From Pseudomonadota bacterium (lineage in GTDB: Bacteria > Pseudomonadota > Gammaproteobacteria > Xanthomonadales > Xanthomonadaceae), in assembly GCA_018242365.1 (NCBI GenBank), contig JAFECB010000017.1:372001-436000 (forward strand): a stretch of DNA of 64,000 bases, given 5' to 3'. The notes under the pieces were generated by a model, which did not search any database, had not been told where the DNA came from, and saw only the letters and a program-made list of their open reading frames with translations. The translations under genes and the position numbers were made by a program. Numbering within the stretch: the first letter of the stretch is position 1; the number at the start of each line of letters is the position of its first letter. Positions 12,158 to 16,303 of this stretch are shown here, piece after piece.

Positions 12158-12502
12158 TCAGCGCGGTGCCCAGACGGCCGCATCGAGCGTGTCTTCCTCT
12201 GCCCCCATCCGCACCCGGCCATTGCGGACGGCCACGCCTTCATCACGCAGCCGGCGCGCCTGTTCGCGCCACGGTCGCGATCCGACCGGGAACGCGATCC
12301 GACCATCCGAGCGCAGGATCCGATGCCAAGGCAGATCGGCATCGTCATTTTCGCGGAGTACGCGGGCCACCAAGCGGGCACGGCCAGCCAAGCCGCAACG
12401 ACGCGCGATCCCGCCATAACTGGCGACTTCGCCACGCGGCACCGCGCGGATCGCATCAAGGATGCGCTGGTGCGTGGATTCGTTGCCTTCAGGCGTAGCC
12501 AT
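12158..12502 (-). CDS. Alkyltransferase-like (Atl/MGMT-fold) DNA-binding protein
   Basis: 114-residue protein with the C-terminal MGMT fold: helix-turn-helix segment VASYGGIARRCGLAGRARLVARVL and DNA-contacting Arg. The MGMT active-site PCHR is replaced by PWHRI (DLPWHRILR). The alkyl-acceptor Cys is therefore missing, as in Atl proteins, which bind O6-alkylguanine and channel it into nucleotide excision repair. Met at 12502 is chosen over an in-frame start 15 nt upstream. Family call is firm; the repair role is by homology. Confidence 0.87.
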   Translation of the reverse strand: MATPEGNESTHQRILDAIRAVPRGEVASYGGIARRCGLAGRARLVARVLRENDDADLPWHRILRSDGRIAFPVGSRPWREQARRLRDEGVAVRNGRVRMGAEEDTLDAAVWAPR

Positions 12503-12549
12503 GATCCGGGTTAGCATACCGGTTCACCCGTTCGCGCTTCGTGCTGCCC

Positions 12550-12960
12550 ATGAACAATTTCGAACAGATCCACCAGCACCTGATTGCGGCCGACTATCGC
12601 CTGCTGCTGGAGGAGCCCGGGCTGGCCTGCGTCGAGCTGACCCTGCGGCAGGGCAAGCGTCATCAGGCGATCTTCCTGACCGAACTGCAGGACGACGACG
12701 GTCGCCGCTTCCTGCGCGTGAGCACCTCGATCGCCCCGATCACCGGGCTGGATGCGCGCAAGGCGTTGGCGTTCAACTGGGAAAGCCGGGTCGGCTACCT
12801 CGCCATCGGTGAACTCGACGGCGTGCGCTATCTGCAACTGTGCGAGAACCGTCCCTACGACAGCCTGCTGCCCGCGGAAGTGGATCGGTTGATCCTCGAA
12901 ATCGGCGGCACCGGTGATGCGATGGAAATGCGCATGTCGGCGGGCGGCGATTTGCTGTAA
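12550..12960 (+). CDS. Hypothetical protein
   Basis: 136-residue soluble protein, family not recognised with certainty. Residues 1-25 look helical (FEQIHQHLIAADYRLLLEE). The middle consists of alternating beta strands (ACVELTLRQ, HQAIFLTELQ, RFLRVSTSIAPI, RYLQLCENRPYDSL), and the tail is helix-forming. The pattern resembles small alpha/beta YbjN- or secretion-chaperone-like folds, but that is only a shape resemblance. There is no signal peptide or membrane helix. A GTG 9 nt upstream (12541) is an alternative start and no clear Shine-Dalgarno is present. It is divergent from the Atl gene and convergent with pit. Confidence 0.7.
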   Translation: MNNFEQIHQHLIAADYRLLLEEPGLACVELTLRQGKRHQAIFLTELQDDDGRRFLRVSTSIAPITGLDARKALAFNWESRVGYLAIGELDGVRYLQLCENRPYDSLLPAEVDRLILEIGGTGDAMEMRMSAGGDLL

Positions 12961-12974
12961 CCGCCTGCGCGATA

Positions 12975-12990
12975 CCGGGTCGCAACCCGG
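12975..12990. terminator. Hairpin between convergent genes
   Basis: 6-bp GC stem (CCGGGT / ACCCGG) with loop CGCA between the unknown ORF and the pit gene. There is no T run on either side, so termination function is uncertain. Confidence 0.35.
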
Positions 12991-13009
12991 CACCGATGCC
13001 CCACGCCGA

Positions 13010-14131
13010 TCACGCCCAGCCTGCGATCATCAGCCCGCGATAGAACAGCCACGCCACCGTGGCCGAGGCCGGGATGGTCAGGATCCAGGCCCAGATGATC
13101 CGCTCGATCGTGCTGATCTTGAGCTTGCGCGGGTTCTTGGCGAAGCCCACGCCCATGATCGCGGTCGACACCGTGTGGGTGGTCGAAACCGGCATGCCGA
13201 AGTGCGCCGCGGTCATCAACACCGTGGCCGAACTGGTATCGACCGCGAACCCGTCCAGCGGATGCAGCTTGACCATCTTGTGGCCCAGCGTCTTGATGAT
13301 CCGCCAGCCGCCCGAGGCGGTGCCCGCCGCCATCACCAAGGCGCAGGTCACCACGATCCAGGTGGCGACATCATTGCCGCTGGATGCGGCCGGATGCATG
13401 AACGACAACCAGTCCGGCAGGTCATCCAAGGCGCCGCTGGCCTGCGCGCCCACCAGGGTCAGCGCGATCACGCCCATGGTCTTCTGCGCATCGTTGTGGC
13501 CGTGGGCATAGCCCATGTAGGCGGCCGAGGCGATCTGCAGTTTGCCGAACACGGCATTGATCCAGCGCGGGCGCGCCAACCGGCGCAGGAAGCCGCCGGA
13601 GCGCGACATCGCCGCGATCAGCGCCCACAGCAGCACCATCATCGACAGGCCCAGCAGGAAGCCGACCAGGGGCGAGGTCACCATCGGCACCATCACCTTC
13701 CACACCAGGCCCTTGCTCTTGGTCCACTCGGCCGCGCTCTGGATCCAGATCAGCGAGTCCCAGTTCATGTGCGAGGCCGACAGCGCCGCGCCACACAGCC
13801 CGCCGATCAACGCGTGCGAGGACGAGGACGGCAAGCCGAACCACCAGGTGACCAGATTCCACACGATCGCACCCAGCAGCGCGCTCATCACCAGCTGCGA
13901 GGTCGCGGCGACCACCTCGGTATTGACGATGCCAGTTGCTATCGTGGCGGCGACGGCAGTGCCGGTGAGCGCGCCGATCATGTTCATCACCGCCGCCAGA
14001 CTCACCGCCTGGCCGGGGCTGAGCACCTTGGTCGCGACCGAAGCGGCGATGGAGTTGGCGGTGTCGTGGAAGCCGTTGATGAACTCGAACACCAAGGCAA
14101 ACGCCACCACCACGAGCACGAGAGTCAGCAT
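13010..14131 (-). CDS. pit: Inorganic phosphate transporter, Pit family
   Basis: 373-residue low-affinity phosphate permease. The two internally repeated PHO4 signatures are visible: FEFINGFHDTANSIAASVAT at the N-terminus and GYAHGHNDAQKTMGVIAL past the middle, separated by a hydrophilic loop. The substrate is most likely a neutral metal-phosphate. ATG at 14131 forms a TGATG stop-start overlap with the upstream DUF47 gene; a GTG one codon earlier is an alternative. DUF47-Pit is a recurrent operon, and the pair lies behind a Pho-box-like promoter. Confidence 0.93.
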   Translation of the reverse strand: MLTLVLVVVAFALVFEFINGFHDTANSIAASVATKVLSPGQAVSLAAVMNMIGALTGTAVAATIATGIVNTEVVAATSQLVMSALLGAIVWNLVTWWFGLPSSSSHALIGGLCGAALSASHMNWDSLIWIQSAAEWTKSKGLVWKVMVPMVTSPLVGFLLGLSMMVLLWALIAAMSRSGGFLRRLARPRWINAVFGKLQIASAAYMGYAHGHNDAQKTMGVIALTLVGAQASGALDDLPDWLSFMHPAASSGNDVATWIVVTCALVMAAGTASGGWRIIKTLGHKMVKLHPLDGFAVDTSSATVLMTAAHFGMPVSTTHTVSTAIMGVGFAKNPRKLKISTIERIIWAWILTIPASATVAWLFYRGLMIAGWA

Positions 14132-14757
14132 CACGCGTTCTTCAGCACGATCTGGTAAGCCACCACGCCGGCCTCGCGGCAGCGGTCGATCGCCTTCTCG
14201 AGGATCTCGAAGAACTCCTTGAGCAGGAACATCTGCAGGCTGTCGAGCTTGCCGGAATAGATCTCGCGATACAGCTCCAGCATCAGCCGGTCGGCTTCGT
14301 TCTCGATCGAGCGCAATTTCTCGTTGAGTGCGGTCATGCGGTCGAGGTTCATGTGTTCAAGCTGGTCGACCATCTCCACCACCACCTCGGCGGCCTGCTC
14401 CAGCATCGCCGCGCGCGGTGCGAAATCGATATGGCCAAGATGCTGGACCGCCAGCGCGTAGCGATCGGCGAACTTCTCGATCTGCTTGGGGATCTTGTGC
14501 AGCGCCGAGCCCAGCGCCTCGATGTCCTCGCGCTCGAATGGGGTGATGTAGCTGTCGACCAGCGCCTGACTGAGCTTGTCGGCGGCGGTGCGCTCACGCT
14601 GGCGGGCCAGCTTGAAGGCATCCAGCGCGGGCTGGCGGTCGGCCTCCTTCATCATCGCGTGCAGCGCCTTGGCGCTGTCCAGCGCGGCCGCGGCCGCATC
14701 ATCGAGCAGCGCGTAGAACTGGGTTCCGGCACCGAAAATGGTTTGCAGGGAGAACAT
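14131..14757 (-). CDS. DUF47 (PhoU-like) protein, Pit accessory
   Basis: 208-residue all-helical PhoU-like protein of the DUF47/YkaA group, starting MFSLQTIFGAGTQFYALLDD. The conserved EREDIEALGSALHKIPKQIE segment falls near residue 90. These proteins modulate adjacent Pit transporters. ATG at 14757 gives the typical start; the frame is open further upstream through the promoter. It is translationally coupled to pit. A run of eight C residues on this strand lies just before the start codon. Confidence 0.9.
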   Translation of the reverse strand: MFSLQTIFGAGTQFYALLDDAAAAALDSAKALHAMMKEADRQPALDAFKLARQRERTAADKLSQALVDSYITPFEREDIEALGSALHKIPKQIEKFADRYALAVQHLGHIDFAPRAAMLEQAAEVVVEMVDQLEHMNLDRMTALNEKLRSIENEADRLMLELYREIYSGKLDSLQMFLLKEFFEILEKAIDRCREAGVVAYQIVLKNA

Positions 14758-14790
14758 GGTGGGGGGGGTTCCGTCTACGTTTAGGGCGAC

Positions 14791-14824
14791 ACGATAGGGC
14801 GTAATTATGACGGTTCGATGACGC
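14791..14824 (-). promoter_or_regulatory. Pho-box-like promoter of the DUF47-pit operon
   Basis: On the minus strand two 7-mers, GCGTCAT (14818-14824) and CCGTCAT (14807-14813), are spaced 11 bp apart, as in a PhoB box (CTGTCAT-N4-CTGTCAC). Ten bases further on is TATCGT (14791-14796), a reasonable -10. This is the layout of PhoB-activated promoters, where the box replaces the -35. The predicted target, a phosphate transporter, fits. Two bases per repeat or fewer deviate from consensus. Confidence 0.55.
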
Positions 14825-14989
14825 GCCGTGCCCCGCATGCGGCCTGTTATCATGCGCCCGCGCCCCGGCGCGACCCATGGACACCTTCAACTGCCCGCCG
14901 CCACGCCTGTCTTGCGCCGCCCCGTCCCCACGGGCGTGCCGCCGTGGCCTGCGCCCTGCGTCCACCTCGCCCGCACCCGGTGAAGCCCC

Positions 14990-16303
14990 GTGCTGGAACT
15001 GCTGATCGTCCTTGCCCTGCTCGTCCTCAACGGCTTCTTCGCGCTGTCGGAGATGGCCGTACTCACCTCGCGCAAGGTGCGCCTCAAGCAGCAGGCGGAA
15101 ACCAGCCGCGGTGCGCGCACCGCGCTGGAACTGGCCGAGCGACCGGAACGCTTCCTCTCCACGGTCCAGGTCGGCATCACCAGCATTGTCATCCTGACCG
15201 GCATGTATGGCGGCGATGCCATCGGCCAGCGCATCGGCCACTGGCTGGCCGTCAATGTCCCGACCCTTGGGCGCTATTCGGAAACCATCGGCACGGTGCT
15301 CGCGGTTACCGTGATCACTTACCTCAGCATCGTGATCGGCGAGCTGATCCCGAAGCGGCTGGCGCTGCTGGCGCCTGAACGGCTCGCGGCCGTGGTGGCA
15401 ACGCCGATGCGCTGGATGGCGTGGATCGCCAACCCGGTGGTCTGGCTCCTGAGTGCGACCGTGCACGCCTTCCTGACCCTGTTCCGGCTCAAGGGCGGCA
15501 GCGACGATCAGGTCACCGAGGAAGAGATCCGGCTGCTGGTCAGCGAGGGCCACGAGCAGGGCGTGATCGACCTCGACGAGCGCAACATGGTCAACCGGGT
15601 GATGCGGCTGGGTGATCGCACCGCCGACAGTCTGATGACGCCGCGCACGAAGATCGCCTGGCTGGACACCACCGCGACCTTGCAGGAAAACCTCGCGGTC
15701 ATGCTGGAGCACGCCTATTCGCGCTATCCGGTCCATTGCGGCAGCGACGCCGACGTGGCCGGCATGCTGGAAGTGAAAACCCTGCTCGACGAATTGGGCC
15801 GGCCCACGCCGAGCCTGTTCAACGACATTCGCCCGGCGCTGTTCGTATCCGAATCCACCCACGCGATGAAACTGCTGGAACTGCTGCGCGAAGACCAGCA
15901 ATCGGCGGCACTGGTGGTGGACGAATACGGCGACATCCAGGGCATGGTGACGATTGCCGATATCGTCGACGCGGTGATCGGGCGGTTGCAGACCGGCAGC
16001 GATGCGGATGACGGCGAAGCGCTGGTGGTCGAACGCGAGGACGGCTCGCTGCTGGTCGATGGCGGCCTGCACATCGACGAGCTGCGCGAGCTGACCGGCG
16101 AGCGCATCCCGGATGCCGACGAAATGGAATTCCATACCGCCGCCGGGCTGGTGATCGCCCATTTCGGGCGCATCCCGCGGGTCAGCGAGTATTTCCGGAT
16201 CGGCCAATGGCGGATCGAGGTCGTCGACCTCGATGGCCCGCGCGTCGACAAACTCCTGCTGCAACGCGACGCCCCACCACCGCACCCGGCTGGGGATGGT
16301 TGA
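14990..16303 (+). CDS. CNNM/CorC (HlyC-CorC) family transporter, CBS-domain
   Basis: 437-residue protein with an N-terminal CNNM (DUF21) membrane domain (LLVLNGFFALSEMAVLTSRK, about 1-190). A tandem CBS pair follows (VMRLGDRTADSLMTPRTKIAWL to EYGDIQGMVTIADIVDAVIG, about 200-345), then a C-terminal CorC_HlyC domain (about 355-430). The family is tied to Mg2+/Co2+ efflux and membrane homeostasis. Start is GTG at 14990; no ATG lies nearby. It is divergent from the phosphate operon and convergent with the GGDEF-EAL gene 18 nt away. Confidence 0.9.
   Translation: MLELLIVLALLVLNGFFALSEMAVLTSRKVRLKQQAETSRGARTALELAERPERFLSTVQVGITSIVILTGMYGGDAIGQRIGHWLAVNVPTLGRYSETIGTVLAVTVITYLSIVIGELIPKRLALLAPERLAAVVATPMRWMAWIANPVVWLLSATVHAFLTLFRLKGGSDDQVTEEEIRLLVSEGHEQGVIDLDERNMVNRVMRLGDRTADSLMTPRTKIAWLDTTATLQENLAVMLEHAYSRYPVHCGSDADVAGMLEVKTLLDELGRPTPSLFNDIRPALFVSESTHAMKLLELLREDQQSAALVVDEYGDIQGMVTIADIVDAVIGRLQTGSDADDGEALVVEREDGSLLVDGGLHIDELRELTGERIPDADEMEFHTAAGLVIAHFGRIPRVSEYFRIGQWRIEVVDLDGPRVDKLLLQRDAPPPHPAGDG

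Follow-up and report, generated by a model that had tools for sequence, protein, structure and literature searches.

In the 64,000-nucleotide stretch of DNA analysed here (the window), a DUF47-Pit operon is preceded by a Pho-box-like promoter, as the original prediction had claimed; a motif matrix, the spacing to the -10 element, the presence of PhoB and conservation among relatives all support this reading of the sequence. We consider it probable, at about 60%, that this is a genuine Pho box in activator position from which PhoB raises the operon when phosphate becomes scarce, and activation is the sign of PhoB control that we favour. This suggests that the everyday phosphate importer, often thought to be always on, would share its phosphate-starvation switch with the emergency importer and so depend on phosphate supply.

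The probable Pho box, its operon and PhoB

The box is an 18-mer (GCGTCATCGAACCGTCAT) on the minus strand at 14807–14824, with two GTCAT half-sites at 11-bp spacing, the distal one at 14822–14818 and the proximal one at 14811–14807. The 7-mers CGTCATC and CGTCATA were thereby confirmed, and they form two 11-bp direct repeat units with seven conserved bases each, which is how an excerpt of PMC4415409 defines the pho box. Ahead of the DUF47 gene the minus strand reads GC-GTCAT-CGAACC-GTCAT-AATTACGCCC-TATCGT; the layout from 14824 to 14791 is the 18-mer, then the ten predicted bases (14806–14797) and then the -10 element TATCGT (14796–14791), whose last base lies 33 nt from the ATG. When one mismatch was allowed, the exact site at the DUF47 promoter was still the sole GTCAT-N6-GTCAT match in the window. 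This loose pattern alone is not significant, because shuffled windows average 3.4 such matches.

The operon's first gene (14131–14757, minus strand) encodes a PitR/Pap-type accessory protein of 208 aa with a DUF47 domain (PF01865, PhoU_div), whose Pfam score of 25.1 bits is barely above the cut-off of 24.4. Its ATG is at 14757, and a start further out at 14853 was ruled out since relatives align from residue 1 (MFSLQTIF) of the shorter form. The Pit phosphate transporter gene (PF01384, 299 bits; 13010–14134, minus strand, 374 aa as called) follows directly on the same strand with a 4-bp overlap, as judged from the coordinates, and is the single Pit match in the whole genome. A gene for a CNNM/CBS/CorC-HlyC membrane protein (14990–16303, plus strand) is divergent and has its intergenic region in common with the DUF47 gene. 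That the box serves this CorC gene was ruled out, as the repeat and the -10 face the DUF47 side; no second box in the DUF47-CorC interval was found among the window's top 12 matrix sites. The source genome (2.63 Mb, 34 contigs) belongs to a relative of Thermomonas, and in a search of genome contigs the best DUF47 relatives came from two Thermomonas MAGs and T. beijingensis (95–98% identity).

To score the site, we used a matrix trained on the pstS upstream regions of relatives (n=45, own genome excluded). It was seeded with GTCAY-N6-GTCAY sites, comprised 40 distinct sites after refinement and is, owing to the seeding, not free of the GTCAY-N6-GTCAY pattern. The underlying pstS set holds 46 of 61 loci (60 of them L126–L185, plus the genome's own L083), with 13 second pstS copies and the first copies L178 and L179 left outside. 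Where a poor matrix score had been named beforehand as the outcome that would count against the original prediction, the opposite was found: with this pstS-seeded matrix, the DUF47-pit box fits the motif of the clade's known PhoB targets at 22.7 bits and ranks first on both strands of the window, the runner-up reaching 10.7 bits. No site in 10 Mb of second-order Markov sequence reached 22.7 bits, and the box scores above the genome's own pstS box (21.7 bits) and best own phoB box (21.0 bits).

Exact GTCAT-N6-GTCAT occurs four times in the 2.63-Mb genome versus zero times for the reversed control. Of the three other sites, one separates pstS from a phosphate-selective porin O/P gene, one is upstream of a gene whose product is an outer-membrane barrel protein with a carboxypeptidase-regulatory-like domain, and one is within the adenylosuccinate synthetase gene. 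The relaxed pattern GTCAY-N6-GTCAY has 16 genome sites versus four for the control, one of them 22 nt before phoB. By matrix, the top three of these 16 are the DUF47-pit, pstS and phoB sites (22.7, 21.7 and 18.5 bits, the last value belonging to the pair that the pattern picks up, which lies one repeat ahead of phoB's best pair), followed by a site of 15.8 bits inside a 2OG-Fe(II) oxygenase gene. We rejected a chance repeat on three grounds, namely the matrix scan, the number of sites in the genome and the conservation described below.

The site ahead of the outer-membrane barrel gene (L084:1501-1516; G000:C29:114960-114975) is itself followed after 10 nt by TAGCAT and scores 12.9 bits. The gene behind it, assigned by Pfam and Oar-like by eye, is a candidate further target of PhoB.

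The genome encodes PhoB (TIGR02154, 349 bits against a cut-off of 296), and in an alignment of the DNA-binding domain its recognition helix (YVEERTVDVHIRRLRK) has almost the same sequence as in E. coli PhoB (YVEDRTVDVHIRRLRK); the regulator is present with a conserved DNA-binding helix. It appears highly improbable to us that a different member of the OmpR/PhoB family acts at the site, for example an additional PhoB-like protein of the kind that some Thermomonas-type genomes have. Several OmpR-family regulators are encoded, and the genomes of three related loci (L002, L003 and L006; genomes G001, G002 and G005) hold two proteins each above the PhoB cut-off, but the source genome has one only, and pstS and phoB share this motif and spacing.

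Two -10-like elements

In Pho-box promoters the box stands in place of the -35 element, about 10 nt upstream of the -10. The window promoter (GTCAT-N10-TATCGT) has the same offset as the genome's own pstS and phoB promoters, the latter reading GTCAC-N10-TGTAAT. Within the pstS set, GTCAY stands 10 nt ahead of T[AG]NAAT in 38 of 46 upstream regions, with a single occurrence at any other offset between 0 and 30, and GTCAY-N6-GTCAY is present in 37 of 46. An unseeded dyad count on the same regions placed GTCAT-N6-GTCAT in a four-way tie for the top (18/46). Upstream of phoB, GTCAY-N6-GTC[AG]Y was found in 25 of 28 readable regions (31 loci tried). The genome's own phoB (L086/L232) has three 11-bp repeats that run almost to the ATG, the second being followed by N10 and TGTAAT, and is likely autoregulated from a very short leader, as judged from this arrangement.

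The window promoter contains a second -10-like hexamer, CATAAT (14804–14809, minus strand), inside the proximal half-site. This alternative overlaps the box, TATCGT does not, and the presence of both makes a promoter switch possible. CATAAT matches TATAAT at five of six positions versus four of six for TATCGT, which counts against activation from the latter. A sigma70 scan of 12400–15100 returned no standard promoter; an ordinary sigma70 promoter was ruled out by this empty scan, and we also counted the result against the activation reading.

Conservation among relatives

We compared 91 upstream regions of close DUF47 relatives, including the window. The proximal half-site served as anchor in 90 of them, being the single candidate in 89; L187 could not be anchored and stands outside the counts. 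The 90 loci represent 65 distinct 34-base promoter stretches, some probably being one species twice (L056, L197). Every anchored locus shows TANNNT at precisely 10 nt beyond the half-site (13), CATAAT within it (84, in the form GTCATAAT) or both (7); all six loci without CATAAT have TANNNT. Both elements accompany the box at L004, the locus of Thermomonas beijingensis, a cultured relative with this layout. When offsets from 0 to 30 were counted, TANNNT occurred in 13 of the 90 loci at 10 and in one each at 13 and 30. The distal GTCAY is kept in 13 of 13 TANNNT loci versus 30 of 77 others, a comparison in which the 13 are not independent because the TANNNT state needs only two to three changes on the trees; an independent-pairs test found two pairs only and has no power.

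A first protein tree places nine loci, including the window, in one group with a support of 98, and every member has TANNNT; on a rebuilt tree, the starred group to which the window belongs has eight TANNNT loci, not nine. Both are quick trees. For part of its rows the first used incorrect reading frames of Pit, with five rows placed on a very long branch, and the second has DUF47 only in 13 of 81 rows. From -45 to +37, the nine loci are invariant at GTCA, C plus GTCA, one A and TA...T, and none of the 49 flank columns is invariant; the invariance of TA...T follows from how the loci were picked, that of the distal GTCA owes nothing to this choice. CATAAT is missing from five of these loci (L002, L003, L006, L016 and L037), all of which have TANNNT. 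We prefer PhoB activation from TATCGT because the window's group pairs a -10 at this position with both half-sites even in these five.

The DUF47 boxes of L002, L003 and L006 use GTCAC.

Some observations among close relatives weigh against activation. L186, a locus from the same genus, has CATAAT and no TANNNT, and its distal half-site, GTCGC, is weak; when it is added to the nine loci, GTC, GTCA and one A remain invariant and the flanks still 0/49. PhoB was found in 49 of 50 genomes searched, and the exception, without a PhoB at the search threshold, is the MAG of L064, whose Lysobacter-type locus is of the TANNNT type. The four Lysobacter-type loci resemble one another too closely to be informative, with 29 invariant columns among the 49 of the flanks.

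The position of CATAAT inside the box in most relatives would suit repression or phosphate-independent expression. PhoB might then repress the operon or switch between two promoters, with CATAAT active at plentiful phosphate and shut off by PhoB sitting on top of it, which we regard as rather unlikely. In favour of this, CATAAT overlaps the proximal half-site in the window and in 84 of the 90 loci overall, and 30 loci retain the distal GTCAY without TANNNT. Order-wide, a DUF47 match at E 1e-20 was obtained in 58 of 151 genomes, and 40 of those upstream regions were taken; among 30 more distant ones, 11 score at least 16 bits and the other 19 from -4.0 to 12.6 (raw scores). Nine of these 11 read TGTAAC-N6-GTCAT, six of them over TAACAT, again in line with repression, for which excerpts of PMC3131613 and PMC8829014 offer a precedent in orfA-pit of Sinorhizobium meliloti. 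Against repression stands the nine-locus group with its uniform TANNNT and the five members devoid of CATAAT, and 17 nt before the window CATAAT the sequence is GGCACG, not -35-like by eye.

In ten Pseudoxanthomonas suwonensis-type DUF47 promoters (L027, L028, L040, L043, L050, L056, L073, L074, L079 and L080), the distal half-site is gone and matrix scores are negative (median -11.7). All ten carry TGTCATAAT, which we take to be an extended -10 by consensus. The TG before GTCATAAT accompanies the loss of the distal half-site in these loci; we claim no rule, because TG changes only about twice on the tree. Loss of phoB as the background to the missing half-site was ruled out, as PhoB is present in nine of nine genomes searched (of ten). 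These promoters, which lack the half-site in the presence of PhoB, favour a constitutive promoter at which the repeat is a leftover or a coincidence and PhoB binds without transcriptional effect, and E. coli PhoB sites are, according to an excerpt of PMC10294691, mostly intragenic and many of them transcriptionally inert. For the window we nevertheless find this improbable, since conservation in its group is confined to the half-sites and the -10, and the DUF47-pit box is the top-scoring of the genome sites examined.

Among the loci examined (alignment A1), we also observed a hairpin in the leader, CCGTC-N7-GACGG, immediately preceding the DUF47 start in 27 loci of Stenotrophomonas, Xanthomonas and Pseudoxanthomonas (L007, L049, L056 and 24 more). 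One of its six pairs changes on both sides (UA in 22 of 27, CG in 5 of 27), and no such hairpin was seen by eye in the window. Furthermore, a record titled Bacillus subtilis SK7B5 (L023) contains a Stenotrophomonas-like DUF47 locus, which points to a mislabelled or contaminated assembly.

Proposed mechanism and known systems

For activation by PhoB, we propose that scarce phosphate would lead PhoR to phosphorylate PhoB, a dimer of which would occupy the two 11-bp repeats (14824–14803) and replace the missing -35 element. Bound PhoB would recruit sigma70 RNA polymerase to TATCGT, with a predicted transcription start near 14784, and the DUF47-Pit operon would be raised along with pstS and phoB. 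In the absence of bound PhoB, CATAAT in the proximal half-site may sustain a low basal level of transcription. The PitR-type DUF47 protein would couple Pit to PhoR signalling and could thereby close a feedback loop. If this genome's sole Pit and its PitR-type partner are indeed PhoB-activated, both importers would rise together and the sensor's brake would be under the sensor's own control.

More tentatively, and with the odds against it, the working -10 of the DUF47-Pit promoter may have shifted by 13 bp while the Pho box kept its place in a large part of the order. For most of the family this would mean that PhoB sits on the promoter or is dispensable. In Thermomonas, and independently in a Lysobacter-like clade, it would have turned into an activator and brought the low-affinity importer together with its sensor partner into the starvation response, reversing the sign of a regulatory link in nature. 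The family provides matched natural promoters with a similar box and a different -10 position for testing the sign of PhoB control.

The usual contrast is between a constitutive Pit importer and the regulated Pst system, and the original prediction held PhoB control of Pit to be notable because Pit is often regarded as constitutive. For P. aeruginosa, pitA is called constitutive (excerpt of PMC12506140). Control of Pit by PhoB or PhoP has already been reported elsewhere in both directions, with S. meliloti and Streptomyces as precedents, and Pit regulation differs among species according to part of a review (PMC4415409). Among the matches listed, which were titles and the starts of abstracts with the subscription literature thinly covered, there was no report of PhoB control of a DUF47-Pit operon in Lysobacteraceae.

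The window promoter resembles the pstS and phoB promoters of its own genome and family in its 11-bp GTCAT repeats and the half-site 10 nt before the -10. Unlike the pstS promoter, which by eye has about four to five repeats, it has two, the proximal one holding CATAAT. Similar to the prediction made here, E. coli pitB was once listed as a PhoB target; unlike it, pitB was dropped after genome-wide mapping found neither PhoB binding nor control, as stated in the available part of PMC10294691. In Staphylococcus aureus, a PF01865 protein is likewise paired with Pit (pitR-pitA), and PitR restrains the phosphate two-component system (excerpt of PMC13170248), a regulatory role shown there that the DUF47 protein of the window would share by inference.

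As in the window, orfA(pap)-pit of S. meliloti combines a DUF47-type gene and pit in one operon with a PHO box in the promoter (excerpts of PMC3131613 and PMC7866108). There the operon is repressed on starvation and its PHO box lies immediately before the translation start (PMC3131613, in part), whereas here the box lies upstream of the -10 at activator spacing. Excerpts also describe lower pit expression under phosphate stress in S. meliloti (PMC8829014) and at low phosphate in Accumulibacter (PMC12604563), and the decrease in both counts against the activation reading. A precedent for activation comes from Streptomyces coelicolor, where, according to the accessible part of PMC7866108, the phosphate response regulator PhoP switches on the Pit gene pitH2 through 11-nt repeats and pap-pitH1 is not phosphate-regulated; PhoP uses another motif than the one described here, and pitH2 lies apart from pap.
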